Below the pieces are notes generated by a model that was not told where the DNA came from, ran no database searches, and saw only the letters and a program-made list of their open reading frames with translations. A stretch of DNA of 44,064 nucleotides from a virus, in the IMG/VR virus record IMGVR_UViG_3300018080_004981, positions 1 through 44,064 of that record; one strand, 5' to 3'. The translations under genes were made by a program, and so were the position numbers. How positions within the stretch are numbered: position 1 is the first letter of the stretch; each line of letters begins with the position of its first letter. Below are positions 2,532-21,719 of the stretch, in pieces.

Positions 2532-2718
2532 CTCTGAGACTCCTATACTCCTCAAGGGTCAATTTGCGGATCTCAAAAAACCCACAGATACGGCACCACA
2601 GCTGAAGGTGACACGCCTCGTCTGTGACCACCGTCCCTCGTACCCGGAGGAAGCGATCTTCGCAGTTCGGACACCTCTGACGATCAAACCACGAATCTCT
2701 GTACTCCTCACTTCGCAA
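2353..2718 (-). CDS. Small zinc-ribbon ORF overlapping both neighbours
   Basis: A third reading frame between the clamp loader and the metallopeptidase encodes a clear zinc ribbon: CPNC, 23 residues, CRIC (about residues 16-46 from the TTG at 2718). The TTG has AAGG upstream and overlaps the end of the clamp-loader gene by 11 bp. The frame stays open to 2353, so the last ~60 residues overlap the metallopeptidase gene out of frame for about 180 bp and read like a shadow (Arg/Gly/Ser-rich). Only the first ~60 residues look like genuine protein. Either the protein has a long non-conserved tail, or a frameshift or missing base hides the real stop. Function unknown; possibly nucleic-acid binding. 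Confidence 0.5.
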   Translation of the reverse strand: MRSEEYRDSWFDRQRCPNCEDRFLRVRGTVVTDEACHLQLWCRICGFFEIRKLTLEEYRSLRDGRTGSVERGAGAGGSEGRPVGARRVSSGSSRSVGREIFGGPGAHRPSARRIRKGDRGK

Positions 2719-3790
2719 CGCTGCATACCTTGGCCGCGAACATGCTCCAAACAACCTTGGGGTCTGGAGCGTACCGCATGAGCTGGGAAGTCTCCTCCCA
2801 CTCTCGAACCAGGTACCGAACGTCATCGAGACCTAACCTTAAATTACAAGAAAGGGACTCGTAGGGTAGCCCAGTTTTGTACGCCCCGGTATCTGCGGGG
2901 ATACCCGACAGGTAGAGCATAAAATCGTGCAGCAGCGTAGGGATTCCGTCCAAAAACAGCGTACGCAGGTCCCGACCCTCAGAGTTCCACGAACGGATTT
3001 CCTCCATGAAGACCCGGAGATTTTTCTGATCGAGGACCTCAGCCATATCACCGAACTCCTCCCTCGAAACTACCCCCACAGCCTCCTTGAGAAGGTTGAC
3101 GTCCAGAGGACCATCCCCGGAAGCGATAACCAGGGATTCCAAAATCTGCTGGGTATCCCTCAACGATCCACCGCCGAGCAGGCTCAGTCGCTCGACGAAC
3201 TCCTCCGTATGCGACTTACCTTCGGTCTGGAGAATACGCCGTACCCCCTCTGCTACCTCGGAAGAAGTGAAGGACCTCAGCGGCATCGACAGACACCGTG
3301 ACCGCAACGTGTCCGACAGCTTCTGGGGGTCTGTGGTTACGAGTAGGAAGACGGTGTTCCGAGGGGGCTCCTCTACAAGCTTCAACAAGGCTGCCTGGGC
3401 TCCTTTGGAGAGCATGTGACACTCGTCGAAAATGATCACCCGGTATCGGTGGACGATGACCTGCTTCAGCAGACCCTCTAGCTCGCGGACATCATCTACG
3501 CCGTTGTAGGTAGCAGCATCACGCTCCAGGATGGACTGGTGGCTATCGTAAAGCTCCCTACACGAGGAGCACACCCCACAGACATCCCCGGCTTGCATGA
3601 AGCTGTCGCAGTTCAAAGCCCGCGCGTACAAACGGGCCAAGGTGGTCTTCCCGGTCCCCCTGATTCCCGCAAAAAGTACCGCCCCCGGAACCCTGCCCAT
3701 CAGGATCGAGTTCACCAGGATGCGCACAGACACCGGCTGTCCGATGACCTCTGAGAATGACCGAGGACGGTACTTGATCGAGAACTGCAT
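2708..3790 (-). CDS. dnaX: DNA polymerase III gamma/tau-like clamp loader ATPase
   Basis: 360 residues from the ATG at 3790, one base after the upstream stop. The open frame extends further upstream, but that part is out-of-frame shadow. N-terminal KYRP box (about 6-9) typical of gamma/tau and RFC. Walker A GIRGTGKT (42-49). Zinc module C61, C71, C74, C77. Walker B with DECH (122-125). Sensor 1 threonines near 152 and an SRC motif (164-166) carrying the arginine finger. All the AAA+ clamp-loader residues are present, so it should hydrolyse ATP to open and load the clamp encoded at 9028-10176. It is short (no tau extension). No delta or delta-prime gene was recognised, so it may act as a homo-oligomer or with host subunits. 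Confidence 0.9.
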   Translation of the reverse strand: MQFSIKYRPRSFSEVIGQPVSVRILVNSILMGRVPGAVLFAGIRGTGKTTLARLYARALNCDSFMQAGDVCGVCSSCRELYDSHQSILERDAATYNGVDDVRELEGLLKQVIVHRYRVIIFDECHMLSKGAQAALLKLVEEPPRNTVFLLVTTDPQKLSDTLRSRCLSMPLRSFTSSEVAEGVRRILQTEGKSHTEEFVERLSLLGGGSLRDTQQILESLVIASGDGPLDVNLLKEAVGVVSREEFGDMAEVLDQKNLRVFMEEIRSWNSEGRDLRTLFLDGIPTLLHDFMLYLSGIPADTGAYKTGLPYESLSCNLRLGLDDVRYLVREWEETSQLMRYAPDPKVVWSMFAAKVCSVAK

Positions 3791-3791
3791 G

Positions 3792-4715
3792 CTACTTGTA
3801 GTAGGAGAGGTCCCTCTCGTAGAACTCCTTGAACGCCTGCTTGATACGCACCACCCGAGGAGTCTTGTTCTCAGGCTTACCCCAACCCCAGTTGCCGAAC
3901 TTGGACCGGTTGACGCGCTTCCACGCCTCCACGAAGACCTGCTCCGGCCAATCACCGATGCGCTTCTTGGAGTTCTGGAACAGCCGATAGGCCGCAGCAG
4001 GGTTGTTCTGCCACAGGTTCAAGAAGAGGGCCACGCAGCCGCTCGACCACCCCGCCTCCTGGTCCGCCATGACCAGATCATTGATCGTAGCTCCCCCAAG
4101 AGGGCTACGGGGGTGTTGCATCTGGCGTGAGAACTCCTGCTCCGCGAAATGGGCCTGGGCAGCGGCCATCCCGAACGCACAACCCATATCCGCGAACAGA
4201 CGAGCGAGACGGAGAGCGAACCGCTTCTGGCTCTGGAAGCTGTCCGGGTGCGCAACACGACCCATGCAGATGTCGACGATCTTCTTCTTCTGGGCTTTCT
4301 TACGAGGATCGAGCACCTGCGCTTGAACGCCCCCAGGTACCCACACGAACTTACCCCCAGTGATCCTGAAACCGAACTGCTCGAACTTCTGGCAACCAGT
4401 CTCTTCGTCACAGCAGATCACGTCGAAGAGGGTATCGTGATCGTCCTCCGCACCGTCAAAGTCGTAACAAGGGATCGACTTGAGGCTCTCCAGGAACTTC
4501 TGGAGTCGACCGCTCGTGAACGTCCACTGCATGAACCCAAAGGTGACTCCGGTCTCGTCATACATGACCACAGTGTCGTGCGCGCCCTCACACCGAGCCA
4601 CGACACCGAGAACACGCTGCATCGGGGTAAGAGGCCCCGGAGGGTCGTAAAGGTTCTCCCCTCGTACACGAGGGCCTCCCCCGTCCTTCCACTTCACCCA
4701 CGTCGCCTTAGCCAT
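3792..4715 (-). CDS. Putative lysozyme-like peptidoglycan hydrolase
   Basis: 307 residues. The ATG overlaps the upstream zinc-finger gene by 8 bp. Around residues 40-75 it shows a pattern seen in lysozyme-like muramidase/transglycosylase domains: a Cys-Glu-Gly near residue 43, a Tyr-Asp turn, then TFGFMQWTF, where Glu would be the general acid and the Gly/Gln/Trp segment lines the cleft. The C-terminal half is rich in Trp, Asn and Lys. There is no signal peptide or transmembrane segment, so release would need a holin or another route. Its position inside the replication block, between a clamp loader and a zinc-finger protein, is odd for an endolysin and lowers confidence. A structural or unrelated helical protein remains possible. 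Confidence 0.4.
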   Translation of the reverse strand: MAKATWVKWKDGGGPRVRGENLYDPPGPLTPMQRVLGVVARCEGAHDTVVMYDETGVTFGFMQWTFTSGRLQKFLESLKSIPCYDFDGAEDDHDTLFDVICCDEETGCQKFEQFGFRITGGKFVWVPGGVQAQVLDPRKKAQKKKIVDICMGRVAHPDSFQSQKRFALRLARLFADMGCAFGMAAAQAHFAEQEFSRQMQHPRSPLGGATINDLVMADQEAGWSSGCVALFLNLWQNNPAAAYRLFQNSKKRIGDWPEQVFVEAWKRVNRSKFGNWGWGKPENKTPRVVRIKQAFKEFYERDLSYYK

Positions 4716-5542: not shown

Positions 5543-7750
5543 TTACACAGCGTCTTCTTGGATGTGCTTGTCACTCCAACGCTGCACAATTTCAGTGTCC
5601 ACCAACAACGGTACCCGGAACTGTGTCATCTCTCTGAGCCGGACAGTCATCGCGTCATCCATGATCGCGCACACCTGATCGATGCAAGAAGTATGGGCGT
5701 ACACTACCAATTCATCGTGGATATGCAAAATAGGTGCTGCGGGCAACTCGTGACGATGGATCTCCTGGTTGATCCAGACCAGCGATAAGGAAGCCATGTC
5801 CACGGCAGTACCCTGAATAGGGCTGTTGACGGATTGACGCAGCGCGCGACCCACCTTGCCCTTCACGTAGCGAGCTTCCCTGTTGATGACGCACGAGTGG
5901 AGATGCGGGCACGCCTTGCACTTCTCGAACTGCCTGCTCTTGACTGCCCGCATGTGATCACGAAGCTGCTCGGTAGTGATCTGATAGAGTTCCTGAGGAT
6001 CGATGCCAAGCCATAGTGGGTACGGGCCGTCCTTGTAGCACGGAGGACGCGACTCCCACTTGGGAGCGGCTACGGTAGGCGGTACCTGTAGTTGAGCATC
6101 GGGAAGATGACGTCTACGCCCAAACAGGTTGTTCACGTACCCGTAAGCCTTAACGAACGCGTGCGTATCATCGATCCATTGACGAAGCACAGGGGCTGCC
6201 CCGAAGTAGTCGTCGTTTATAAGAGTGTGTGCCTCATCAGGGGTCATCCCGAGCCTCTCCGCCAAGGAGAACTCGCTCTGCCCGTAAATGATACCGAAGT
6301 TGACCGTCTTGGCCTTGGAGCGATCCGCCTTATGCTGCCGCTTCACCTCCTCGGGTGAGAGATTCGGATGCCAGATCTTGGCAGCCATGGCCGCGTGCAT
6401 GTCGTGCCCTGCGTTGAAACCATCGATCCAGACCGGCTCTCCTGATAAGTGAGCAGCCACCCGCAATTCGATCTGGGAGAAATCCTTGAAGATCAACCTG
6501 TAGTCATCCGCAGCGCACCACATCGACTTCACGATCAAGCCGCCGTTCTCTGGTCTGGGCAACGTGGTGAGGTTCGGGTCGGCGCACTTCAGACGCCCAG
6601 TAGCAGAATCCATCCAGAACGTAGGGTGGACCCACCCCACTCGACCTCCATTGGTGACCTCCTCCACCTTGTCGAGAGCCGCCTCCGCGTACAAACCGTG
6701 GATCTGCTGCGCTCTACGGAAATTGAGCAAAGGTTCTCGAATAGGGTGCTCAAGACCCTTCAAGGCGTCTGCATCGGTAACCCACTCCTTATGCTTGTTC
6801 TTCTTCCCTGGCAGACCCAGCGTTTCGAAAAGCATCTGACCGAGCTGCTTGGGTGAACCCACGTTGAACTTCGCCCCGCACATCTGGTGTACCGCTCGCT
6901 CAGAATCCAGGAGAACCTTCGCCTGCTCGTTGAGAACCTGACGCGCCACCTTGAGGTCGAGCGGAACCCCGTGCAGCTCCATCAAGGTCAGCGTGTGCTG
7001 GAGCGGCATGATGAGATTGTTGAAAACCCACGTCAGCCCCTCTTCCTCCAGCATGGGCGTGAAAACGAACTTGAGAGCCAACGTGAGGTCGGCATCAGCA
7101 CAAGCGTAGGGGTATAGGACCTTCAACGGCACCTTGGAGTACCGCTTCATGTGCTGATCGTAGAACTGGAGAGCCTGCTGGAGGTCGTCCTTGAAGTAGC
7201 TAGCCCCTTGAGACAGGTACGCGTCCGAAATACCGAGCTTGATCACCTTTCCGTCGACGGAGAAATCGGACTTCAGCGCGTGAGAAGACACCAGCCGCTC
7301 CTCGTCGAGAAGAGCGTGAGCGAGCATGGTGTCGAACGTCAAGTTCCTAGTGTGGATGCCCATCAGAGCGGCTAGCTGCCGAACATCGAACTTTCCGTTA
7401 TGGGCGACCTTGGGAATGTCGGTCTCCAAGATCTCCTTGAGGGACCCCTCGGCGTTTTGTTGACGAGCACCCCAGTACGGGCCGTCGTCGGAACGACTCA
7501 CCGGGACGTATGCCGCCGTACCCGCTTCCCACGGAAGTGCCTGGGTACGGCCCCATGCGAACGAGATGCCCGCTACGCGGTGAACAAAGTCTTCGGGAAG
7601 CTTCTTCTTACCCTTCCAGGTAGGGTGGTTGGTCTCGATGTCGAAAGCGAATTCAGCAGAACGCCCCAACTCCTCAAGAAGCCATGACAACTTCTTGGGG
7701 GTGTCGACGAGGTGGTAAGAAGGGGGCGCCTCTACCTTCGAGAAGAACAT
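5543..7750 (-). CDS. polA: Family A DNA polymerase with 3'-5' proofreading exonuclease
   Basis: 735 residues; the ATG directly follows the stop of the upstream gene. The exonuclease domain is intact: D37/E39 (FDIET), N118...D122 (HNGKFD) and an acidic ExoIII motif near 219-221. Polymerase motif A is DFSQIELR (D423). Motif B has R477, K481 and NFGIIYG. Motif C is HDE (678-680). There is no 5'-3' exonuclease domain; that activity is encoded separately at 18764-20308. Between the GRRR-LPDA segment (about 544-551) and NSPIQGTAVDM (about 642) there are ~80 extra residues with C611-x2-C614-x5-C620, a likely structured or metal-binding insertion in the fingers. It should be the phage replicative polymerase, presumably tethered to the clamp. 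Confidence 0.95.
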   Translation of the reverse strand: MFFSKVEAPPSYHLVDTPKKLSWLLEELGRSAEFAFDIETNHPTWKGKKKLPEDFVHRVAGISFAWGRTQALPWEAGTAAYVPVSRSDDGPYWGARQQNAEGSLKEILETDIPKVAHNGKFDVRQLAALMGIHTRNLTFDTMLAHALLDEERLVSSHALKSDFSVDGKVIKLGISDAYLSQGASYFKDDLQQALQFYDQHMKRYSKVPLKVLYPYACADADLTLALKFVFTPMLEEEGLTWVFNNLIMPLQHTLTLMELHGVPLDLKVARQVLNEQAKVLLDSERAVHQMCGAKFNVGSPKQLGQMLFETLGLPGKKNKHKEWVTDADALKGLEHPIREPLLNFRRAQQIHGLYAEAALDKVEEVTNGGRVGWVHPTFWMDSATGRLKCADPNLTTLPRPENGGLIVKSMWCAADDYRLIFKDFSQIELRVAAHLSGEPVWIDGFNAGHDMHAAMAAKIWHPNLSPEEVKRQHKADRSKAKTVNFGIIYGQSEFSLAERLGMTPDEAHTLINDDYFGAAPVLRQWIDDTHAFVKAYGYVNNLFGRRRHLPDAQLQVPPTVAAPKWESRPPCYKDGPYPLWLGIDPQELYQITTEQLRDHMRAVKSRQFEKCKACPHLHSCVINREARYVKGKVGRALRQSVNSPIQGTAVDMASLSLVWINQEIHRHELPAAPILHIHDELVVYAHTSCIDQVCAIMDDAMTVRLREMTQFRVPLLVDTEIVQRWSDKHIQEDAV

Positions 7751-9027: not shown

Positions 9028-10176
9028 CTAGACGGGCGCCTTGATGAGAAGAGTAACGTCGGCTCCAGTCTCATCGGTGATGACCAGAGACGTCTCGTCC
9101 TTGTCATAGAAAACCAAATGCTCCTGATGGAGCTTCATCGAGTTGATCGCTCGGTTCTTGTGAACCCTGAAGGGGATCATGTCGGTCGCTCCCCCCACAA
9201 GGCACTCTACCAACTCCTGAACCTCGCACCCGTTGTGCGTCTTGGCGCTCACGCTCCACACCGGGTTTCCGCTCGACCCTATACCGGACACCGAGAACAC
9301 TACCAGCGACTCCTCGGTACCCACCACAGTCGACACCAGGTCCAGCACTTCCAAGAACCTCTTTTTGTTGAAAACGTACTTCCTGCCGGCAGGATCGATC
9401 TGCATTACCCCCGATTGAAGACCCAACGCGTCGGCGTAACATATTGGCAGATCGTCATAGAGCTTCGGGGTGAGTACGATCACGGAACTGCGTAACTGGT
9501 AGCCGAACATGTTCGAAGAGAAGAAAAAGTTCTGCACCTCGTCCTTGAACACTTGAAGTGCCTTCGACTGGGAGAACGGCAACACGTGCCGGGCACCCGA
9601 CCACGGCGCATCGTCCCAGAGAGACAGAGTAGGGTGTGCGCACAACCGAACAGCGGTTTCGCTGAACTTGACGACACGGCACAGACCTTCAACGGTGTTG
9701 TCAATCAGTATGCCCGAAAACCTGGGCGTCTCACCGATAGATCCCCCGCAAGTCACAATAGACTGAGCGAGCCACAGAATCGACTCAGTGTCCTCCTGAC
9801 GGAGACACGACAGCTCCGGTAGAGCCGGCTGCTTGACGTACGACGCGGCAGGGAACTTGACGGAGATGTTGTCCTCGACGACCAAGAGGAAGTTTTTACG
9901 AGGCGTGAACTTGATCTTACTCCCCTCGTAGAGCCTCTTGAAAAGAGCAACGAACTTGGGCGACTCGACCCCCATGTTGAAGGTCTTGCCACCTTCCACA
10001 GGGTGAGAGGCGAACACCACGGCTTCGGAGTCCTGGGAGAACAGGTAGAAGTTGGTACCATCGTACGAGATGTACACATAGTCGTTCTTGGGACTACACT
10101 TCTCGATAGCCCGACAAAAATCAAAACCGAACTTGTAGTCGACAACGAAGCTGGAGCCGTCAACACTTACTAGCAT
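9028..10176 (-). CDS. Sliding-clamp-like protein (DNA polymerase III beta-like)
   Basis: 382 residues, about the length of bacterial beta (366-380). The ATG overlaps the upstream sigma-like gene by 7 bp. The sequence alternates short strands and helices in the way of three clamp folds. The first (about 1-125) has a YISYDGTNFYLFS hairpin and an alternating strand near KFTPRKNFLLVVEDN. A later one ends with YDKDETSLVITDETG and LLIKA strands. A helix with FNKKRFLEVLDLVS (about 280) resembles the beta helix that lines DNA. Its neighbours (clamp loader, polymerase, primase) support the call. It would encircle DNA and tether the polymerase. The sequence is divergent, so a structural prediction would be the test. 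Confidence 0.65.
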   Translation of the reverse strand: MLVSVDGSSFVVDYKFGFDFCRAIEKCSPKNDYVYISYDGTNFYLFSQDSEAVVFASHPVEGGKTFNMGVESPKFVALFKRLYEGSKIKFTPRKNFLLVVEDNISVKFPAASYVKQPALPELSCLRQEDTESILWLAQSIVTCGGSIGETPRFSGILIDNTVEGLCRVVKFSETAVRLCAHPTLSLWDDAPWSGARHVLPFSQSKALQVFKDEVQNFFFSSNMFGYQLRSSVIVLTPKLYDDLPICYADALGLQSGVMQIDPAGRKYVFNKKRFLEVLDLVSTVVGTEESLVVFSVSGIGSSGNPVWSVSAKTHNGCEVQELVECLVGGATDMIPFRVHKNRAINSMKLHQEHLVFYDKDETSLVITDETGADVTLLIKAPV

Positions 10177-11018
10177 ACCTGGTCTGCCTTGATGTAGATG
10201 GGCTCACAGCCCTTCTTCTCCGGATACAACTTGTGCACGACACTCACTGTCCTAGAGATCTCCCGACGAGCCACCTCGATCCTGCGGTAGGACATCCCTA
10301 AACGACGGGAAAGGGCCACGTCGGTCGCCCCAGGATCATCACAGAGGCTCTCCAGCACACCCTGCGCGGTCAAGGAGATGCGCTCAGAGATATTGCGGAC
10401 CAAACGGGCTGCCTCGATCCTCACCTCCGGCTCAGGGCCACCGTCAGTCAAGTGCTCCAGCACCTCGTCCCCCGTGGGGTGCTCGAAAGAACTCAGCCCA
10501 CCCTCAGCCCGAGAGTCCCCGGCGTACTCCGGAAAGTCGACGTCTACGTGATGCGCGAACCCACCCTCCCCGGCATCGTAGCCGCGTTTTTCCGTCCGAG
10601 TCGACTTGACCAGGTTGAATGCCTTCCCGAGAAGACGGTTATATAGCAACGACTCTATTTTTGCGGTCTTCACGACCTCTACAGAGGACTCGTCCACCCA
10701 GATTTCCTCTGGGACCTTTGTCGTTCGGGGAGTAGAGAGGAGGACCGCGCGTCCGTCTTTGCGCAGCATGTGGTACAGGCGACGATTCCTCCGAAAAAGA
10801 GGGGATCTGTACAGCTCCATGACGTCTGCAACAGAAAGAAGCAGTTCACCGAGAACCTCCTCCTCTGGCAGAAACGTCGACTTCGCCGTGTCCACCGTCA
10901 ACCTGAAGATCAGGCCACGCCACTTCTGGACCGCTAGAGCCAGACCAGGATGCTCGTCGTGTAGACGACGGATGACCTGATCGATGACTACCAAGGCAGA
11001 ACGCTGACGATTCTTCAC
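10170..11018 (-). CDS. Putative sigma-factor-like DNA-binding protein
   Basis: 282 residues from a GTG at 11018 that overlaps the primase stop as GTGA, with GGAGG just upstream. The N-terminal 140 residues are helical and basic, with segments that could correspond to sigma region 2 (about 25-75 and 115-140). A low-complexity linker with acidic and Gly residues follows (about 148-200). The C-terminal part (about 218-258) reads as a region-4-like HTH: DVALSRRLGMSYRRIEVARREI, with a typical turn at Gly-Met-Ser. Its role could be recognition of phage middle or late promoters. Another helical HTH protein is possible. Its position between primase and clamp is not diagnostic, although phage sigma factors often sit among replication genes. 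Confidence 0.45.
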   Translation of the reverse strand: MKNRQRSALVVIDQVIRRLHDEHPGLALAVQKWRGLIFRLTVDTAKSTFLPEEEVLGELLLSVADVMELYRSPLFRRNRRLYHMLRKDGRAVLLSTPRTTKVPEEIWVDESSVEVVKTAKIESLLYNRLLGKAFNLVKSTRTEKRGYDAGEGGFAHHVDVDFPEYAGDSRAEGGLSSFEHPTGDEVLEHLTDGGPEPEVRIEAARLVRNISERISLTAQGVLESLCDDPGATDVALSRRLGMSYRRIEVARREISRTVSVVHKLYPEKKGCEPIYIKADQVC

Positions 11019-11992
11019 AGTCCCTCCGTACGTGACCGCACCTGCGCCAACCTGGAAGCGGAGAGCGCCCCTGGGTCTTCGTCCTTCTCAAGATGAACCA
11101 AAGCAGGATCTAGCCCGAACGCACACAACTCGTCGTAGATCTTACGACCGTAGTCGACCACCTTGCCGTTCCTCTTCTGAACAACAGCATCCCCGTCCAT
11201 GCACACGACAAGCTTCACCCCGAGACGCACCGAAAGATCCCGCAACCGATTCAGCTGAGCTGCGCTGGCTTCCTTGGTGAACAACCCCACCGCTTCGCAA
11301 CCCAGCTTCGCCATGTTCCAGACATCGCTCGGACCTTCTACGACCCACAGCTCACCAGACGTACCGGAGACGAGCCAACCTCCGTAGAGAACGTTCTGGA
11401 TGGGGGAACCCGTTGGGGTTCTCCACCGCAGCTTGGCGTCAGGATTCAGATACCGGACCTGGAACGTGATGTACGCCCCGTTTAGATCGTAAACAGGAAC
11501 CACGATGGAGTCCCCAATGAAGATGCCCGCACTGTCTCCGCTACGTCCGTACAAGAGACCAAAACGACCAACTATCTCCGGACCAATCCCCCTCTCGGTC
11601 AGGTACGCCACAGACACGATGGGTTCTACCTGGGGGGCCTGCGGAAACTCACTGATCCAGTAGTTTCGCTTCTTCTCCGGATGGGCAGCAAGGAGGGCTT
11701 CGATGTCTGGGGTGACCTGGGTGACACGGAGGTCCCGGTACACCTGAGCCCAGCTCTCGATCCCCTCCATGAGCTTGTAGAAGTACGCGAACGACCCCCT
11801 GACGCCACAACGCGGAGAACCGCATACAAAAACGCCACGGTCTATATCTATGCTGAACGACGGAGAATTGTCGTCATGGAAAGGGCACTGGGTGTGTAGC
11901 TGGCCGCCAGAACTAGGCGTTTTATCAGGGAACTTCGAAAGTATATACCCACGAACGTCCAAAAAACACCTACCAGACACGTAGAGACTCAC
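11015..11992 (-). CDS. dnaG: DnaG-like DNA primase
   Basis: 325 residues as drawn from the GTG at 11992. Zinc-binding CHC2 domain: C36, H39, C57, C62 with the CPFHDDNSPSF signature. The Toprim domain has the glutamate in VVEGPSD (E219) and MDGD (266-268), both metal-binding. No DnaB-interacting C-terminal domain is evident; it is about half the length of bacterial DnaG, as is common for phages. It makes RNA primers for the helicase encoded just upstream. The GTG lacks an obvious ribosome binding site. A TTG at 11962, preceded by GGTAGG, is an alternative start that keeps the whole CHC2 domain. A promoter-like sequence lies in the gap upstream. Confidence 0.92.
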   Translation of the reverse strand: MSLYVSGRCFLDVRGYILSKFPDKTPSSGGQLHTQCPFHDDNSPSFSIDIDRGVFVCGSPRCGVRGSFAYFYKLMEGIESWAQVYRDLRVTQVTPDIEALLAAHPEKKRNYWISEFPQAPQVEPIVSVAYLTERGIGPEIVGRFGLLYGRSGDSAGIFIGDSIVVPVYDLNGAYITFQVRYLNPDAKLRWRTPTGSPIQNVLYGGWLVSGTSGELWVVEGPSDVWNMAKLGCEAVGLFTKEASAAQLNRLRDLSVRLGVKLVVCMDGDAVVQKRNGKVVDYGRKIYDELCAFGLDPALVHLEKDEDPGALSASRLAQVRSRTEGL

Positions 11993-12049: not shown

Positions 12050-12075
12050 GAACAAAAGAACGGTACCTAAGTACC
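12050..12075 (-). terminator. Weak terminator-like hairpin at the helicase stop
   Basis: On the minus strand GGTAC-TTAG-GTACC forms a 5-bp stem with a 4-base loop that contains the TAG stop of the helicase gene. It is followed by GTTCTTTTG. The stem is short and the T-run is interrupted, so it would at best attenuate read-through before the promoter-like element downstream. Confidence 0.25.
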
Positions 12076-13413
12076 CGTTATGTATGGATTTATCTTAACT
12101 GCATGAGCCCAGAGACGGTGAAGTTCCCTAGAAATCGTCATCCGGGGCAAATCCGCGTCCAAAACAACCTCCGGTATAGTGATAGACCCTCCCCGGACGA
12201 ACTGAGGACTGAGAACGATGATCCCCTCCGCCTTCTCCTCATCGGTCTGATCGATGGCAATACTCAGATCGAGAGCCCTGGAGATGTCCGTGCTGAGACC
12301 ACGATGCTTCAAGCCGATACGCTCGACCGTTGCGCCTTCCATGTTCGCCTGAGAGGCCACGAAAAGCGGAACCGAGAACTTCTCGGCATGCCGCTTGAGG
12401 TCCCACACGATCTGCTTTTGGTCACGGCGCTCTTCACGGAAAGAACGGCTAGGCGCAATAATGTTCAGGTAGTCCCACACTTCGACATCCGGAATCCAAC
12501 CTTCTTTCACGCGGAAGTGTTCCAGCTCTGACTCGATGTCCGGGACGGTCGTCTCCTCCGGAGTTGCCTTGATGACCTTCAGCCGATTACCCCACGTGCT
12601 CATCCACCGGAAGGTGGCATCCATGGCGTCCTTCTCTGCCTGTGTCAGCAGGAGGCCGGAGACGCGTTCGTAGTTCAGCTCACTGAACATAGCGTCATAG
12701 CGGTCCATGGTCATCTCCTGGGAGTTCTCGTACGTCACATGCAGGACGTTGAAACCCTGCAAGAGCGTCGAGTACCCCATCGCGTTCAAGAAGATGGACT
12801 TGTACCGCTTGAAGGGGGCGAGAAAATCGACAAGCATCGGAGCGCGGATGGTGAACTGCGCGTCCAGACCTTGAATACCGGTAAGCACCCGTGGACTTGT
12901 CGCCGGGTTGTCACGGAGGACACGACGACGCTCGACACGCTCCTCGTAGGTCGACGCGTAGTCGACAATTTCCAACTGAGAACCCTCCACGACACGGCGA
13001 CCTTCGAGGACAGCCTCGTGCAGCTCGTCGAAGAGAAAATCAATGCGAGAAGTCCGAGCGAACCCCTCATAGGCCGACCGCGTCTTAGTGTTGGCGACAC
13101 AGTACGCCACGTAGGCCCGGAATCGATCCGAAGCATCCTGCTCGAACGTAAGTTGCTTCGCGTACAGATTCCAGATCTGGAGACGGTGCTTCTCCCGAAC
13201 GTCTTCGTCCTCAAGGGACAAAAACTCCTGCTCCATGAAGTCCCACACCGGAGGACTCCAGTCGCGCTCACGAAGGAGCTTCACCATCCACTGGTAGGAC
13301 TCGACCTGGAAGTGCTCGGGCTGCGTAGAGTGAAGGACGTCCGGATCGATAACGCCTGACCGCTGAACAACGGCGGCCAGGAACTCCTCCTCTACGCGAA
13401 CATCGATTTTCAT
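12067..13413 (-). CDS. dnaB: DnaB-like replicative helicase with altered Walker A
   Basis: 448 residues from the ATG at 13413, which overlaps the loader gene as ATGA. A GTG three codons earlier is possible. The N-terminal domain (about 1-110) is helical as in DnaB. The RecA-like C-terminal domain follows a LTGIQGLDAQF segment (about 176-187), the usual DnaB entry motif. Walker B is VEVWDYLNII (D about 314), and the SQ motif is ASQANMEG (Q about 355). The P-loop region reads APFKRYKS (199-206) where GxxxxGKS/T is expected. Lys205-Ser206 are kept, but both glycines are replaced (Ala, Tyr). It is flanked by its loader and the primase, as expected for the fork helicase. ATPase activity is likely but should not be assumed. 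Confidence 0.82.
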   Translation of the reverse strand: MKIDVRVEEEFLAAVVQRSGVIDPDVLHSTQPEHFQVESYQWMVKLLRERDWSPPVWDFMEQEFLSLEDEDVREKHRLQIWNLYAKQLTFEQDASDRFRAYVAYCVANTKTRSAYEGFARTSRIDFLFDELHEAVLEGRRVVEGSQLEIVDYASTYEERVERRRVLRDNPATSPRVLTGIQGLDAQFTIRAPMLVDFLAPFKRYKSIFLNAMGYSTLLQGFNVLHVTYENSQEMTMDRYDAMFSELNYERVSGLLLTQAEKDAMDATFRWMSTWGNRLKVIKATPEETTVPDIESELEHFRVKEGWIPDVEVWDYLNIIAPSRSFREERRDQKQIVWDLKRHAEKFSVPLFVASQANMEGATVERIGLKHRGLSTDISRALDLSIAIDQTDEEKAEGIIVLSPQFVRGGSITIPEVVLDADLPRMTISRELHRLWAHAVKINPYITGT

Positions 13414-14153
13414 ACCGGCCACTCACTCATGCCATCAGCGGTTCTGAAGTCCTCGCCGCCCCCGACCTCTACCTGCCGAAAAACACGACCCCCAATGACG
13501 CCGTCAGGACGAATCTCCAGCACCGAGTCCAGAACACCACCGTAGAACCCCGAAAGACTCGACGGGGCATAGTTGGAAGTGATGATGGTGGGGAGCCGAT
13601 GATCGAGCCGGTGGTGCATGATACGGTGCAGCATCGTAATGTTGGACTCTTTTTTCCAGTCTGCACTACGGGACTCCGTCCCGAGGTCATCGATAACGAG
13701 GACAGACGCGCGCCACGTCTCTTCGTCCCAACCCCTGCGCTCTTTCTCGCACATGGCGTGAATGTTCTCGAAAGCATAGGTACGGCGGGGATCGTAGTTC
13801 TCAGTCTTCGACAACGTCCACAAGAGCACGTACAGCAGGTAGTGCGCCAAGGTGGTCTTCCCGCGACCGTTCTCTTTCGAGAAGATGTACAGACACAGCC
13901 CCTTCGACATCACCTCGAAAGGGTTGTAGAGAAAGTACTGAACCGCTTCCGCACCGTTCTCTATCATCGGGAGTTGGTACTGAGGTGAGCTAACCAGGTC
14001 CAGGGTGTGCTCGTGGAAACCACCCCCTACGAGACGGTTGAACGCCCGAAACTTGATCGCACACGCACACAGCTCGTCACCGAGGTAACCCGTACCTCGG
14101 CACGCAGGACAATCGCGCTGGATCTTGATTCGCAGCGGTGACCAGTCGCTCAT
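13410..14153 (-). CDS. dnaC: DnaC-like helicase loader ATPase
   Basis: 247 residues; the ATG overlaps the Nudix gene stop as ATGA. An N-terminal zinc module C15-x2-C18...C29-x-C31 precedes an AAA+ core: Walker A KENGRGKT (93-100), Walker B VLVIDDLGTE (about 151-160) and sensor 1 ITSN (191-194). This is the DnaC/IstB-type layout. It should bind the helicase and load it onto ssDNA; the direct coupling to the helicase gene supports this. The zinc module may contact ssDNA or SSB. Confidence 0.88.
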   Translation of the reverse strand: MSDWSPLRIKIQRDCPACRGTGYLGDELCACAIKFRAFNRLVGGGFHEHTLDLVSSPQYQLPMIENGAEAVQYFLYNPFEVMSKGLCLYIFSKENGRGKTTLAHYLLYVLLWTLSKTENYDPRRTYAFENIHAMCEKERRGWDEETWRASVLVIDDLGTESRSADWKKESNITMLHRIMHHRLDHRLPTIITSNYAPSSLSGFYGGVLDSVLEIRPDGVIGGRVFRQVEVGGGEDFRTADGMSEWPV

Positions 14154-16010: not shown

Positions 16011-17822
16011 TCACAGAGACAAGTACCGCAAGAGGTCCTCACGTCCCATCTCTACCAGCTTTTCGTTACTCGTCGTGATCGCATCGGCCATGTCCTGCTT
16101 GCCCAGCAGCTTGTCCCGGATCAGCTCATCCACCGAGGCCACCACATCCAGAAAAACTACCGTCGCTGGTTTGGCGCGGATCATATCGAGCCTGGTCGGA
16201 GCGGACGCCGCTACCCGGCGGTGGATACGGTCCAGGGACTGCTTGTACAGAGTGAATGAGTACGGACGGTCTATGTAGATCGACGTGCGGCCTCGCGCCA
16301 AGAAGTCGACCCCCGTCCCTGCCTTGGCCGGAATGCACACCGCGACCCTCGGAGACGCGGCGTTCTCGAACTGGTCTGCGATAACTGCCAGCTCGTCGTT
16401 ACCCACCCCTCCGTAGATCTTGACCGCTCCGTAGGTGGAGTTGTAGCGCTCGTAGAGCAGCTCCACCCCCTTCCGGTACTCCGTCCACAAAACGACCTTG
16501 GCCTCTGGATCGGAAAGCACCTCTTCGAGGACCGAATCGCACTCCACGTACTTCGCAGACTCCCCCTCCTCGTCCAGAAGACTCGGATGGTTCATCACCT
16601 GACGTAGCCGCAAAACCGTCGAGTTGTCAGAGAGAAAGCGGTACAGGTTGACCATGCTGTCACGAGGAAGATCGGCAACGATCTCCCCGCAAATGGTCTT
16701 GTACAGAGCCAGCTGCTTGCCTGACATCTCGACGTCTCTGACCATGAACACCCGGTCCGGGAACCCAGTCATGTCGTCCTTGGTGCGCCTGATCGACACC
16801 GCCTCCAGCAGACCCTTCAGCTCGTCGAGATTCTTGAAGCCCACCACCTTGCGGTGGGTCCCTCTATGCCCGTACGTGACGTTCTTCTTGACCACAAAAT
16901 GGTTCTCGAACTTGTTCTGATGGGGAACCGTGTCCAGGGACAGAGAACGGAGGACGACGAAAGCGTTCAACGGGCTCTCGCTGACGGGAGTACCGGTCAT
17001 CAGGATCGCACGAGGTCGATTACCCTCTCGATCCCTGGAGTCGTTCAGCAACGACAAAACACACTTCGTACGCTTCGCGTCCGGGTTCTTGTACATGTGG
17101 AACTCGTCAACGATAATCATATCCCACTGCATATCCCGGAGGAGCTTCAAAATCTGGCCACCCCACTGCTTGCCGCCCCCGATAAGGTTCTCCGGATGGA
17201 TGAGCAAGACGTCCCACTCGGTGTCCTTGTTCCCTTGGATAAAGCTGAGCGCTCTCTTGCGTCCGTTCGGGACCGCCAAGGGCTTCAAATGTGTGTGCTT
17301 TTTGATCTCCTTCAGGAAACCGATCTGCACTGTGTAAGGGCAAATAAGGAGCGAACGACGTACCTTCGGACCCAAGGCAACGACAGTCGCCAGGGCTTCC
17401 AAACTCTTGCCAACTCCCATCTCGTCGAAAATCCCCACACGCCGATTGTTGTACGCGAAGGAGATCGCAGAGAGCTGATCTTCGTACGGAACCGTCTTCA
17501 ACTTACCGTCGAGAAGACCGCTCACGAACTGATTGTTGACGCCCTTCTTGATCTCTTCGTTGCGCACCCGCTGTGAGTGAATCCACGTGATCCACTGGAA
17601 AGCATCCTCGTGGATGGTTCGCCCCTCCACGAGACCCAGCATATCGAGACGGTGCCGGAGCATCGCCATGTCGTAGTAAGAGATTGTCCAGGTGTTCTCG
17701 TCCACCTCGTACGACGACAGCAGACCACGCACTACCAGGTACACCCGCTCGTAGTAGGGATGCCGGGGATCTAACTGAACGCAGATGCGTTTCCCCTTGA
17801 GAGAGATCTCAATCAAAATCAC
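16011..17822 (-). CDS. SNF2-type superfamily 2 helicase/ATPase
   Basis: 603 residues. The first possible start is GTG at 17822, but TTG at 17816 sits better behind AGGGG; both fall in the end of the upstream gene (14-bp overlap). Helicase motif I EMGVGKS (about 134-140), motif II DEFH (239-242), motif III MTGTP (275-279). Late motifs include AKAGTGVDFL and a QSLDRIHRRV arginine-finger motif. The DEFH and QxxxRxxR pattern fits SNF2/Rad54-like or UvsW-like translocases. It probably remodels forks or recombination intermediates and works with the neighbouring exonuclease/glycosylase and TSCPD proteins as a repair group (inference from gene order). Confidence 0.87.
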   Translation of the reverse strand: MILIEISLKGKRICVQLDPRHPYYERVYLVVRGLLSSYEVDENTWTISYYDMAMLRHRLDMLGLVEGRTIHEDAFQWITWIHSQRVRNEEIKKGVNNQFVSGLLDGKLKTVPYEDQLSAISFAYNNRRVGIFDEMGVGKSLEALATVVALGPKVRRSLLICPYTVQIGFLKEIKKHTHLKPLAVPNGRKRALSFIQGNKDTEWDVLLIHPENLIGGGKQWGGQILKLLRDMQWDMIIVDEFHMYKNPDAKRTKCVLSLLNDSRDREGNRPRAILMTGTPVSESPLNAFVVLRSLSLDTVPHQNKFENHFVVKKNVTYGHRGTHRKVVGFKNLDELKGLLEAVSIRRTKDDMTGFPDRVFMVRDVEMSGKQLALYKTICGEIVADLPRDSMVNLYRFLSDNSTVLRLRQVMNHPSLLDEEGESAKYVECDSVLEEVLSDPEAKVVLWTEYRKGVELLYERYNSTYGAVKIYGGVGNDELAVIADQFENAASPRVAVCIPAKAGTGVDFLARGRTSIYIDRPYSFTLYKQSLDRIHRRVAASAPTRLDMIRAKPATVVFLDVVASVDELIRDKLLGKQDMADAITTSNEKLVEMGREDLLRYLSL

Positions 17823-18237
17823 CCCTCAAGAACTCGTCAACCTCAGACTCCCGCTTATCCTGCTCGGACACCGACGCCATCTCCAAGACACGACCCTTCA
17901 GGAGGGGGTACCCCTTGCACCCTACCCCCTTGACCTCGATCTCGCGTACAGGAGCCCCAGGGCTCAAGTAGTAGAGCGACTCGAACGTCCTACGCTCGTC
18001 CGCCCCCACGTTGACCAACGACGTCTTGACCGAGATCCGAATAACGTCACCCGAGTCGGCCTCACCCTTCCACAGGTACCACAGGATGCCCTTGGAAGAC
18101 TCCAACCGCGACGTCAGGTACTTGCCGCACTTGTCCTGCCACGAACACTCCTCGTCGTTGATCCACGCACGGATGAGCTGGCCCTCTCGACGTCGTTGAG
18201 CCGTCTTCTGGTAGCCAATCTGTACGATGAACTTCAC
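17809..18237 (-). CDS. Protein of unknown function
   Basis: 142 residues, start ATG overlapping the TSCPD gene stop as ATGA. Mixed strands and turns with a basic N-terminus (about 10-25) and an acidic C-terminus (about 120-142). Two cysteines flank residue 35. No recognisable domain. It lies between a TSCPD protein and an SNF2-type helicase; co-translation is likely. Confidence 0.75.
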   Translation of the reverse strand: MKFIVQIGYQKTAQRRREGQLIRAWINDEECSWQDKCGKYLTSRLESSKGILWYLWKGEADSGDVIRISVKTSLVNVGADERRTFESLYYLSPGAPVREIEVKGVGCKGYPLLKGRVLEMASVSEQDKRESEVDEFLRGDFD

Positions 18238-18767
18238 TCGCCACCCTGCGGAGCTGTGCTGACCTCCTCAACAACCTGCTGCCACTCGGCGTCGGCCTCA
18301 TTGAGGGGCAAGCCGGTCTTCGCCGTCGGAGGAAGCTTGGCCTCCATCCACCGAACAACGAGATCTACGAGAGATTTCGCCACAGGAACATCAGGAACAC
18401 CGCTGATGCCCGACGGCTGGAACTCTTGGTACTTGAACTTCTCGTAGACCTTCGCCGGAGGAACCCCGAACTGAAGAAGCAGCGAAAGGGCGATGGACCA
18501 CATGTCCGCGAGACCATGCAACTCGTGCCCGTGCTTGCCCATCCGGATGAACACCTCGCCAGGGGTACCGTCGGGGTAGCAACCCACCGTGAAGTACCCC
18601 TTGATCTCCGTGATCTCCTTCTTCTCGTTCTCACGAGTCAGGGTGAACCGCACCGTACGGCTCTTGCGCTCATCGAGAAGGGGACGACGGATAGGCTCGT
18701 CCCCGTAGCACTCGTGGAGTCCAACCAGAGAGGTCTCGATGTCGACCGGCTGTTCTTTCTTGATCAT
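18234..18767 (-). CDS. TSCPD-domain protein (ribonucleotide-reductase-associated type)
   Basis: 177 residues, ATGA-coupled on both sides. Residues about 55-120 match the TSCPD domain found at the end of B12-dependent ribonucleotide reductases and as separate proteins: KGYFTVGCYPDGTPGEVFI, then a Gly/His turn, then a helix with LSLLLQFGVPP and an FQPSGIS-like end. The domain is expected to bind or regulate a nucleotide-reducing enzyme. No reductase gene is visible in the window, so the partner must be elsewhere in the phage or in the host. The N-terminal part has charged strands; the C-terminal part is helical and Pro/Gln-rich. Confidence 0.75.
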   Translation of the reverse strand: MIKKEQPVDIETSLVGLHECYGDEPIRRPLLDERKSRTVRFTLTRENEKKEITEIKGYFTVGCYPDGTPGEVFIRMGKHGHELHGLADMWSIALSLLLQFGVPPAKVYEKFKYQEFQPSGISGVPDVPVAKSLVDLVVRWMEAKLPPTAKTGLPLNEADAEWQQVVEEVSTAPQGGE

Positions 18768-20308
18768 CGCGTCACCTTGTCCAGAAAAGTTCTGATCGTG
18801 GTCGCCGCGTAATCCATATCACGCGAGGTCTTGACAGACCGAAGTGCTCCCGAAGGGTGCACGCAGATAGCCACCTTGGCGTCAACGTCCCCCACGAGAC
18901 CAGTAGGGTTCTCCAGGATTTCCCCACAGTGCTTGGACACCCGGCTCCGATACGGCGTCACCGCAGACATCGCTTCGTTCCCGAAGCAGATGATGAACTT
19001 GGGCTTGAGCAGATCCAGCTCGGCGCGCAGATACGGAAGGCACGCCATGACCTCGGGGTACGTAGGGGGTCGATTGTTCTCCGAATAGCACTTGCAGGTG
19101 TTGGTGATCCAGCACTCCGACCGGCTAACACCGATCTGCTCAAGAAATCGATCCAACCGGGACCCCGCAGGGGCCTCGGGGAAGAAGGGCACGCCGTTCT
19201 CCAGCTCCTGCGCCCCTGGGTTGCGACCGAGGAGAAGAATCTCGCGATCTTCCGCCCCCGAAGCGTACGTGGGGCCTTTATCCCCGCAATGAGACCTCAG
19301 CTCACAACGGTTGCACTCCGAGATGGCCCAATCGACCTCCCTCAGAGAGCCCCAGGACGGATTCTGCGCGCCGTAAGCTTCCATGTAGTCCACCATGCCC
19401 GTCAGGTCCGTTACACGGTCTGGAAGGAGCCCTGACGGCACAGGATAGCGTCTCCCTATGTGCTCCGACAAGATCTGAACCCGCATAGGGTCCCTGTAGA
19501 GGGGTTTGGACACCTGTTCGAGGAGAACTTGGCGTTCCTTCTCAGAAAGACAGTGAATCGCCTCCCGTAGAGATGGAATCTTGACGAGCCGGTACATCTC
19601 GGCAAGAAAATCCCCCTCGGGGAGTATCTTGGAGGTGGATTTCTTCTCGTCGAGTTCCTTGGCGTGCTCCGGGTTGAGCAGCTCGCCAAGACTCCCGAAC
19701 CGGCGCAACAAAGCAGACCCGGTTTTCGGCCCAACCCCCTTCACCCCCGGAAGATTGTCCGAGGCATCCCCAACGAGAGCCTTCAGATCGGGAATCTGAG
19801 CACAATCCACCTCGAAGTGAGCCTGCGCGGACGTCTGATCCACGAACAGCTCCTTCTGATGGTCGTAGACGTGGACCCGGTCGCTCACGAGCTGCCAGAG
19901 ATCGCGATCTCCGGTCGCCAGGATGACTTCCCAGCCACCGAGGACGTACGCGAAGTACTCAGCGAGCCACGCCAATACGTCGTCGGCCTCCACCCCGTGG
20001 ACAACTACCTGACGGACTCCGTACGCGTCGAGATACCGGCGTGCGAGCATCAACTGCTCGTCGAGGGCCTCCAGATCGATGGCAGAGTCCCTCTTTTTCT
20101 GCGCCCGGTGGGCTTTGTACTCCGAGTACAGCTCCGTCCGCCACCGAGATTTCCCCCTATCCCAGCACACCACAACATCCTGAGGCGTGAATTTCGACAT
20201 CACCTCGAAGAAGTAAGTGATGACCTTCTGAGCGATGCCCTCGATGGGGCTGGAGTGGGCGGCACGCCACAGAAGAGGGTTACCGTCGATGAGAAGCACG
20301 CGACTCAT
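18764..20308 (-). CDS. 5'-3' exonuclease fused to family-4-type uracil-DNA glycosylase
   Basis: 514 residues from the ATG at 20308. Residues 1-about 290 are a PolA-type 5'-3' exonuclease/flap nuclease: LLIDGN (D8), CWDRG (D50), VEADD (106-110), TGDRD (132-136) and the helix-hairpin motif GDASDNLPGVKGVGPKTG (180-197). Residues about 325-514 read as a family 4 (iron-sulfur) uracil-DNA glycosylase: C332-x2-C335, C407 and C423 as cluster ligands, motif A GRNPGAQE (361-368; GEAPG in most members) and motif B HPSGAL (484-489). The linker (about 290-325) is short. This one chain could excise uracil and degrade the nicked 5' end. The polymerase gene lacks a 5' nuclease, so this protein probably also removes primers. 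Confidence 0.88.
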   Translation of the reverse strand: MSRVLLIDGNPLLWRAAHSSPIEGIAQKVITYFFEVMSKFTPQDVVVCWDRGKSRWRTELYSEYKAHRAQKKRDSAIDLEALDEQLMLARRYLDAYGVRQVVVHGVEADDVLAWLAEYFAYVLGGWEVILATGDRDLWQLVSDRVHVYDHQKELFVDQTSAQAHFEVDCAQIPDLKALVGDASDNLPGVKGVGPKTGSALLRRFGSLGELLNPEHAKELDEKKSTSKILPEGDFLAEMYRLVKIPSLREAIHCLSEKERQVLLEQVSKPLYRDPMRVQILSEHIGRRYPVPSGLLPDRVTDLTGMVDYMEAYGAQNPSWGSLREVDWAISECNRCELRSHCGDKGPTYASGAEDREILLLGRNPGAQELENGVPFFPEAPAGSRLDRFLEQIGVSRSECWITNTCKCYSENNRPPTYPEVMACLPYLRAELDLLKPKFIICFGNEAMSAVTPYRSRVSKHCGEILENPTGLVGDVDAKVAICVHPSGALRSVKTSRDMDYAATTIRTFLDKVTR

Positions 20309-20357: not shown

Positions 20358-21677
20358 CTACTCGGCTAGACGGTTCACCAGAAGTCGTTCCCTGTCGTCC
20401 TCCTTGCGAGGCTGCTCTACCTCACGAATGAACTCCGCAGGAACCAGCCTCTGGCCTTGAGTGTTCACCTCACCCTTCAAGGCATTCCACTTGGGAACGT
20501 CGAGAACAAGCCTGAGGCAGTCGTCGAACCCGTTGGCCGTGAGCCACTCGACGATGCGCGCCTCGTCCCGCTTGATCACCGTATCCCCGACCGAAACGAC
20601 CACCTGAGCCGCAAAACCGCCGTCTTCTAGGTACTTGGAGGGCTTGCCCGGCTCCGACTCCACTCCGTGCTCCTTCACGTAAGCCATGAGAGGTGCACGA
20701 AGCTCCTTCTGGACCTCCTCGAAGGCCTTCTTGTACTCAGCCTGGGCATCACGGGCCGCAGCGTACCTCTGAAGATCCTCGCAGTACTTCACGCGAAGCT
20801 GAGCCTGCTCCTCCTGGAGTCGCTGCTCCTCGAAGTAGTCGTACTCGGGCTCGTCGATATCTCGCTCACCGTCATCAGGCTTGAAGCCCAGCGCCCCCAT
20901 CGAGGGCTCGACCGGAGACAGCTTGAGGACACGGACATGACCCGCCAGGACCTGCTTCTCCTGGACCGCCCAGAGCGCCTCTCCGCCTTCGGCACGACAG
21001 ATCAGCATCACGTCTCCCTGCACGACCTCCTTCTGGAGCACCTGAACCGTCAGATCCTCGACATCGACTGCCTGCCAGGAAGCCGTCTGGGGGTTCTGCC
21101 ACCAGGTAGGGCCGTTCAGGATGAGAGCAGACCCCACGGGCACCGTCAGAATAACAGCAGGCGGCACTTCCGGAGGTGGAGGAGCGTCCGGAATCGGGTC
21201 CGCAGCCGGAGCGGTGATCGTCTGGTTCCCTTCGAGGGGAGGGGTGACCTCCACGGGCGTTGAGGTCGGGACAGTAGACGAGACATTCTCGGTCGACGGG
21301 ACCTCCGGCTCCGCAGGAACCTCCTCGGTTTTCTCGGGAGCCTTCTCTGCCTCCTCAGGAGCAACAGGCTTCGTCGCAGTCGTCTTCTGAGGTGCCTTGC
21401 GGGCCGGGACTGCGGGAGCTGCCGGCGCGGCCTCCCCGTCATCGACCACAGGGTCCGGAGGGACGTTCCCCATCTTCTCCAGCTCCGCCTTATGCTTGAG
21501 CTTCATGTGGGTCTTCACGTACCTCTCGGCCTTGAAACCACCTTTTCCGCAAATCGCGCACTTCCACTTGGTCCCCTCGGACATCATCTCCTCCTTGGCA
21601 GATCGTACCCTGTCTAAGGTCCTCTCAAGCGGAGGCGTGAGAGCCCTTTCTACAGCACCGAGAGCCTTTGCAAACAT
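20358..21677 (-). CDS. C2H2 zinc-finger protein with Pro/Ala/Glu-rich linker
   Basis: 439 residues from the ATG at 21677, which has GGGAGGA upstream. An in-frame ATG at 21584 behind AAGGAGGAG is a real alternative start. A C2H2 finger is present (C40-x2-C43, H57, H62). A Pro/Ala/Glu/Thr-rich disordered region runs from about 72 to 178. Beta-rich segment at about 175-260, then a charged coiled-coil helix (about 280-330). The C-terminal ~100 residues (GGFAAQVVVSVGDT, then DVPKWNALKGEV) form a separate globular module I cannot name. The finger should bind nucleic acid and the coiled coil could oligomerise. First gene after the regulator, so probably early expressed; function unknown. Confidence 0.65.
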   Translation of the reverse strand: MFAKALGAVERALTPPLERTLDRVRSAKEEMMSEGTKWKCAICGKGGFKAERYVKTHMKLKHKAELEKMGNVPPDPVVDDGEAAPAAPAVPARKAPQKTTATKPVAPEEAEKAPEKTEEVPAEPEVPSTENVSSTVPTSTPVEVTPPLEGNQTITAPAADPIPDAPPPPEVPPAVILTVPVGSALILNGPTWWQNPQTASWQAVDVEDLTVQVLQKEVVQGDVMLICRAEGGEALWAVQEKQVLAGHVRVLKLSPVEPSMGALGFKPDDGERDIDEPEYDYFEEQRLQEEQAQLRVKYCEDLQRYAAARDAQAEYKKAFEEVQKELRAPLMAYVKEHGVESEPGKPSKYLEDGGFAAQVVVSVGDTVIKRDEARIVEWLTANGFDDCLRLVLDVPKWNALKGEVNTQGQRLVPAEFIREVEQPRKEDDRERLLVNRLAE

Positions 21678-21719
21678 CGATTGTCCTCCCGTACAGCCCA
21701 CATACAAGCCAACGAGGCA

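Follow-up and report, generated by a model that had tools for sequence, protein, structure and literature searches.

The 44,064-base virus record analysed here (the window) encodes a 514-residue protein in which a PolA-type 5′ nuclease is followed by a uracil-DNA glycosylase (UDG)-fold domain with four predicted iron-sulfur (Fe-S) cluster cysteines (Table 1). Judged from the sequence and from structural models, both domains are complete in the one chain, with the nuclease acids, the UDG fold and the four cysteines retained. Our preferred reading, held tentatively at a probability of about 0.42, is that the protein is a phage lagging-strand (Okazaki) 5′ nuclease whose C-terminal Fe-S UDG-fold domain scans the same nascent strand, and that this domain would act in most lineages as a non-canonical uracil glycosylase but be non-catalytic in a branch of two (L029 and L115).

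Table 1 Genes, domains and residues of the window discussed in the text
Feature	Position	Strand	Remarks
Clamp loader	2708..3955	-	Profile matches
Family-A DNA polymerase	5543..7750	-	3′-5′ exonuclease and polymerase domains only
Possible processivity factor	9028..10176	-	phrog_947, E 4e-6; no Pfam match
DnaG-type primase	11015..11992	-	Profile matches
DnaB-like helicase	12067..13422	-	Profile match; Pfam DnaB_C below its cut-off
DnaC-like helicase loader	13410..14153	-	Profile match
SNF2-type helicase	16011..17822	-	Profile matches
TSCPD-domain gene (PF12637), stand-alone	18234..18767	-	Its ATG overlaps the stop codon of the fusion gene
Fusion gene, 5′ nuclease (FEN) and UDG-fold domain	18764..20308	-	514 aa; ATG at 20308, stop codon 18766-18764
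UDG-fold domain, residues 322-514	18767..19345	-	Pfam, sequence and fold matches
Motif B HPSGALR, residues 484-490	18839..18859	-	Sequence alignment, motif table
C423, predicted [4Fe-4S] ligand	19040..19042	-	In 8/8 lineages
C407, predicted [4Fe-4S] ligand	19088..19090	-	In 8/8 lineages
N403	19100..19102	-	Equivalent of UdgX N91 (uracil-recognising)
Motif A GRNPG, residues 361-365	19214..19228	-	Family 4 has GE[A/G]PG
C335, predicted [4Fe-4S] ligand	19304..19306	-	In 8/8 lineages
C332, predicted [4Fe-4S] ligand	19313..19315	-	In 8/8 lineages
Linker region, residues 261-321	19346..19528	-	Fast-evolving; pLDDT <50 at 320-323
PolA-type 5′ nuclease domain, residues 4-244	19577..20299	-	PF02739 at 4-160, PF01367 at 169-244
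Upstream gene	20358..21707	-	Weak, sub-threshold Mu Gam-like match (E 0.0044); zinc-finger-like start by eye

As the preliminary description of this DNA had proposed, a 5′ nuclease and a UDG share one chain: the gene is a single open frame with zero internal stops, uninterrupted between the halves, and each half matches Pfam domains above the curated cut-offs. The nuclease half matches PF02739 (E 7.3e-30, 104.3 bits against a cut-off of 34.3) and PF01367 (E 4.3e-17, 62.8 bits against a cut-off of 40), and the C-terminal half matches the UDG family PF03167 at residues 351-493 (E 4.5e-25); residues 325-514 match UDG models by both sequence and fold. Other exonuclease-UDG fusions exist, the full-length chain being present in 13 IMG/VR records of large uncultured phages with 11 different metagenome numbers, and an assembly artefact or frameshift is rejected on this ground. 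Two records are identical to the window across the gene. The fusions fall into eight lineages, namely the window, L004/L005, L006 (identical to L007, with L009 one base different), L010, L026, L008, L029 and L115 (identical to L116).

The nuclease motifs are complete where the preliminary description had placed them. Nine acidic residues (D8, D50, E107, D109, D110, D134, D136, D181 and D184), which we take to be the catalytic acid set by equating them with those of the Taq and T5 work, are invariant in an alignment of seven lineages and are also present in L115, leaving the nuclease acids intact in all eight. By sequence, the closest solved chains to this half include Taq polymerase (E 4e-27), a mycobacterial 5′-3′ exonuclease and the T5 5′-exonuclease; by structure, the closest PDB entry is 9l56 (Z 28.3, r.m.s.d. 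2.5, 275 residues aligned), with the T5 enzyme 1exn at Z 27.0. The PF02739-PF01367 architecture and the catalytic acids are common to the fusion, the PolA N-terminal domain of Taq and the T5 and mycobacterial FENs (fold Z 26-27 to the latter two), whereas behind the nuclease, where Taq-type PolA carries its polymerase, the fusion has a UDG-fold domain and no polymerase. The half is thus by sequence a PolA-type 5′ nuclease with a full catalytic acid set, for which flap/exonuclease activity is predicted. An AlphaFold2 model of the window chain (mean pLDDT 89.0, pTM 0.63) indicates that both folds are firm and that the mutual placement of the two domains is not settled.

The closest structural match of the UDG half is the family-4 UDG 1ui1 (Z 24.2, r.m.s.d. 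2.9, 182 aligned), with 1ui0 alongside and UdgX 6ajo at Z 22.6; the closest solved chains by sequence are UdgX (E 4e-19) and then family-4 UDGs. A family-4-like domain with cysteines 332, 335, 407 and 423 and an HPSGAL motif at 484-489 had been described, and these features are all found at the positions given; equally borne out is that motif A reads GRNPG rather than GEAPG, a change that may alter catalysis. With family 4 (UDGa; 1ui0, 4zbx, 1vk2) the domain has in common the fold (Z 23-24), the four cysteine positions, the pocket Phe and Asn and the HP of motif B, but it differs in having GRNPG for GE[A/G]PG, a separate tree branch, a nuclease fused to it and a lower score against the NCBIfam model TIGR00758, at which the window (105.9), the stand-alone relative L047 (119.3), L008 (123.6) and L029 (58.4) all lie below the cut-off of 125.3. 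Nor does the window reach the cut-off of the UdgX model TIGR03914 (90.8 against 189.95). Unlike UdgX of M. smegmatis it has neither GEQPG nor a KRRIH-type R-loop, and three UdgX rows have His at the C407 position. UdgX-like covalent trapping is rejected because the R-loop His is absent from the fusion. The GxNPG pattern resembles UDG families 2 and 3 with their catalytic Asn, family 2 (MUG/TDG) having GINPG as its motif A. GRNPG has just this pattern in common with family 2, which is absent among the 50 structural matches listed for the window model.

We compiled a motif table of 51 rows, in which GExP occurs in 35 and GRNPG in nine. Of these nine, seven are fused and represent six lineages, the other two being the stand-alone relatives L047 and L117. 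The first set of rows was restricted to frames that hit the clade profile with E <=1e-8 (79 matches, 43 distinct), eight rows were added later, and the table omits duplicates and the other bacterial UDG matches L094, L095 and L097-L102; L056 is truncated and L134 unclassified. As its phage-collection rows were drawn from 8 of 43 matched records plus SPO1, GRNPG could also occur in cultured phages. Rows are labelled polymerase-fused by frame length or annotation, five of them (L034, SPO1, L049, L128 and L130) being verified by Pfam. In polymerase-fused L032, L034-L036 and L050 the catalytic motifs are kept and the cluster cysteines lost, the opposite of the decay described below for polymerase-fused L128 and L130; L051 and L054 likewise keep GExP and have lost the cluster cysteines.

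The rest of the predicted uracil pocket accompanies GRNPG. E368, F375, N403, K406, H484 and R490 are kept together with it in six of the eight fused lineages, whose UDG halves are 54-78% identical (the near pair L004-L005 apart), and L047 and L117 keep the first five of these residues, L117 having His for R490. In alignment with UdgX the equivalent positions are E52 and R362, Q53 and N363, F65 and F375, N91 and N403, K94 and K406, H178 and H484, and R184 and R490. Published UdgX mutants bear on the motif A change. The excerpts of PMC10359453 state that UdgX E52, at motif A position 2, activates the loop His, that its family-4 counterpart activates water, and that H109S/E52N is about 75-fold below H109S, yet active. 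In the excerpts of PMC10776899, E52A lowers k2/Km about 50- to 100-fold and stays active, N91A and H178A have zero activity, and the double mutant E52A-H109A is inactive. The window protein resembles that double mutant in having neither the Glu nor the loop His.

Outside the 13 records no fusion was detected in the collections scanned. Among 50,697 phage records, none of the 1204 matching the window chain, and none of 1266 matching the L029 query, had a single locus spanning 80% of the chain; the same was true of the 1455 matching records among 72,556 plasmid records. In bacterial genome contigs, none of 14 loci was fused, 13 being plain nuclease or PolA-length frames, while at L070 the nuclease match is split over two frames. 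These scans rely on short peptide patterns and tblastn drops divergent halves, so distant fusions may escape. Scanning with just the L029 chain gave no further relatives; with L047, the sole gain was L081, a UDG match that lies on the L049 contig.

In the syntenic phage L047 (a 170 kb record) a UDG of 200 residues occupies the slot of the fusion, with the upstream-gene homologue before it and the TSCPD homologue after it; its flanks are homologues of the window neighbours (upstream gene 32% identity over 262 residues, TSCPD 42%, a 142-aa gene 58%, SNF2 helicase 50%). A search of this record for a PF02739 nuclease gave none, suggesting that the two activities need not go together. The other stand-alone GRNPG UDG, that of L117 (46.8 kb), has a primase-polymerase gene as well as a family-A polymerase at its locus, and its record gave no PF02739 match either.

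Two unrooted UDG trees of 35 rows each set the fused rows and L047 on one side of a strong branch (100/100, length 1.74 in the first tree; 99/99, length 0.89 in the second), with bacterial family 4, the polymerase-fused rows and, in the second tree only, UdgX on the other, the UdgX rows forming a branch of their own. L117 joins the fused rows and L047 next, on a very long branch (99/96, second tree). L047 is placed within the fused clade (91/91 and 91/85), and an AU test did not reject the fused rows as a single clade (p 0.49), which bears on fusion versus later split for L047. A second AU test, constraining the fused rows, L047 and UdgX together, gave p 0.033; it left out L117 and hence is not relied on. 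Descent from a three-domain nuclease-UDG-polymerase chain was considered and rejected: scanning frames with nuclease and UDG profiles revealed no such chain, and in the trees the UDG halves group apart from the polymerase-fused ones.

Conservation was tabulated for the 28 pairs of eight sequences from seven of the eight lineages (L115 excluded). In 26 pairs conservation is higher in the UDG half than in the nuclease half, the exceptions being L004-L005 and L008-L029; every one of the 28 has its lowest conservation in the linker. For the UDG half dN/dS was computable in 15 of the 28 pairs and ranges from 0.09 to 0.32, values that are rough because most pairs have a dS (mostly >1) close to saturation or beyond it.

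Two lineages depart from this pattern. L029 has lost motif A and the stacking Phe through an in-frame loss; L115 likewise has neither of the two, and its motif-B His has become Asp. What both retain is the four cysteines, N403, the FGNEAM stretch and R490. The tree makes the two lineages sisters (96/93), and their motif loss was probably a single event followed by further decay, although the long L115 branch and the shared gap could attract them to each other. Modelled alone, the L115 domain is still predicted to adopt the UDG fold (pLDDT 91.7, pTM 0.89; Z 23.0, r.m.s.d. 2.3 and 172 aligned residues to family-4 1ui0).

These lineages raise the question of whether the domain is catalytic anywhere in the clade. 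A rival somewhat less probable than the preferred reading is that no lineage has a catalytic UDG half and that the domain serves throughout as a DNA tether or structural part, giving the nuclease a tighter hold on DNA or a link to the replisome. Such a role would account for two of eight lineages losing motif A yet keeping the four cysteines, N403, R490 and, in the L115 model, the fold. Similar combinations occur elsewhere, polymerase-fused L128 and L130 having an altered motif A (SRMPN and GRMPN), no motif-B His and four cysteines, and L044 having changed pocket residues and four cysteines; the inactivity of UdgX E52A-H109A points the same way. There is also a viral parallel in vaccinia virus D4, a family-1 type UDG. 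D4 is bound to its partner A20 rather than fused. According to the abstract of PMC4450493, it serves replication as part of the processive polymerase complex. Against a tether throughout stands the retention of GRNPG, E368, F375, N403 and H484 in the other six lineages despite their divergence, and in L047 and L117 as well, since a mere tether has no need of the pocket.

The neighbourhood of the gene is one of replication (Table 1), and the polymerase of the window has neither a UDG match nor a 5′ nuclease domain. A family-A polymerase was found in nine of ten related records, in open frames of 735-771 residues, the tenth record (48.5 kb) being without a match. PF02739 occurs as one copy in eight of the nine related records searched; the L115 record also has one, and each of these copies belongs to the fused frame. 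PF03167 gave one match in each of nine records searched. The replication-gene setting and a polymerase without its own 5′ nuclease domain make primer removal the likeliest main task of the nuclease, we infer.

Neither of the two AP endonuclease families searched for was found in the related, possibly incomplete, records (PF01261 in 0/9 and PF03372 in 0/10, against controls in 13/14 and 10/14 genomes), nor was the dUTPase family PF00692 (0/9, controls 11/14). The preliminary description had suggested that the fusion couples uracil excision to trimming of the resulting 5′ end. Such coupling is possible, and is favoured by the retention of F375, N403, H484 and R490 in six of eight lineages; a simple repair machine, however, is counted against because the water-activating Glu is Arg in the motif A of the fusion, because motif A is lost in two lineages (one of them also without the motif-B His) that keep the four cysteines, and because PF01261, PF03372 and PF00692 were not found. 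We therefore regard as improbable that the protein is a dedicated long-patch uracil repair enzyme, with excision and 5′ end removal as its main job and a host enzyme removing primers. One chain holding both predicted activities and a conserved pocket would suit such an enzyme, but not its place among replication genes, nor the intact nuclease acids in 8/8 lineages beside UDG motifs lost in two. It is most improbable that the domain targets foreign or host uracil-bearing DNA and marks it for the attached nuclease, for despite the pocket kept in six of eight lineages and the lack of a PF00692 dUTPase in nine records, nothing in the sequence points to this and the neighbours are replication genes.

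Under the preferred reading, a lagging-strand nuclease with a strand-scanning UDG-fold domain, the nuclease half would remove RNA primers and flaps while the UDG-fold domain scans the nascent strand being trimmed. In most lineages the pocket (F375, N403 and H484) may flip and bind uracil, which would be released at a low rate or through a changed chemistry in which N363 and R362 of GRNPG replace the family-4 Glu. A host enzyme might then nick the abasic site, leaving a 5′ end that the tethered nuclease could remove; the host would be needed here because no PF01261 or PF03372 AP endonuclease was found in the related records. In the L029/L115 branch catalysis would have been lost and the domain retained as a DNA-binding or structural part.

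We favour this reading because both domains score above their cut-offs and have matched folds with invariant nuclease acids and cysteines, because the fused frame is the only PF02739 nuclease found in records having one, beside a window polymerase with exonuclease and polymerase domains only, and because the pocket persists with GRNPG in six of eight lineages and the UDG half is the more conserved in 26 of 28 pairs. The excerpted UdgX results agree, in that E52A and H109S/E52N stay active whereas N91A and H178A do not. It is weakened because a site in which Arg replaces the water-activating Glu could be dead, as the inactive E52A-H109A suggests, and because L029 and L115 keep the domain although motif A, and in L115 the motif-B His too, is lost. 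It is further weakened because AP endonuclease and dUTPase of the searched families were not found in the possibly incomplete records, L047 has the UDG without the nuclease, the placement of the domains is unsettled (pTM 0.63) and dN/dS is rough. A more speculative proposal, to which we give little credence, is that the GRNPG Fe-S UDGs are a distinct replication-linked branch that reads uracil without the family-4 Glu; the fused domain could then recognise uracil in RNA primers or misincorporated dU, guiding the nuclease to the ends to be trimmed rather than repairing DNA.

UDG-like domains on phage polymerases, such as that of SPO1, are of an already known kind. In the SPO1-type polymerase gp31, too, a replication enzyme of a phage bears a UDG-fold domain, there at the N terminus of the polymerase, whereas the 5′ nuclease of SPO1 is the separate gene gp32.85 and the SPO1 UDG domain is without the cysteines, pocket Phe and Asn. 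The solved phiLo family-A polymerase (9qhs), also a polymerase fusion, gave a weak sequence match to its UDG-like part (E 0.043), and its structural match to the L115 domain (Z 11.8) is spread over a wide chain range. A UDG on a flap nuclease, the GRNPG motif and a catalytic-motif loss that proceeds in steps while the cysteines stay were not encountered among the literature matches listed or in the collections searched; the matches listed hold no description of a flap nuclease-UDG fusion, although an earlier mention is possible.

The arrangements of UDG-fold domains on replication enzymes that we observed are the N terminus of phage family-A polymerases, the C terminus of a DnaE-like chain and the C terminus of the flap nuclease, and we know of no established reason for such domains. 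The clade supplies a UDG with an unusual predicted motif A and forms a natural series that begins with an intact pocket, continues with the loss of motif A and ends with that of the motif-B His, while the cluster cysteines persist at every stage. The series separates catalysis from whatever function remains, making the role of the Fe-S UDG fold in the replisome directly testable.

The DnaE-like arrangement lies on a WWE3 MAG contig (L096:1471-3453, G017:C47), where an open frame of 1112 residues matches PF17657, PF07733 and PF03167 and ends in a UDG domain with GEAPG and four cysteines. Close to the UDG gene of L047, two adjoining open reading frames (4136-4959) are built of a repeated NQTPEICMAAVK-type unit. 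In L115, a pentapeptide-repeat gene with a DUF7666 match (1915-2982) stands directly upstream of the fusion, and the SNF2 helicase frame (6231-8525) contains a LAGLIDADG-like match, possibly an intein.
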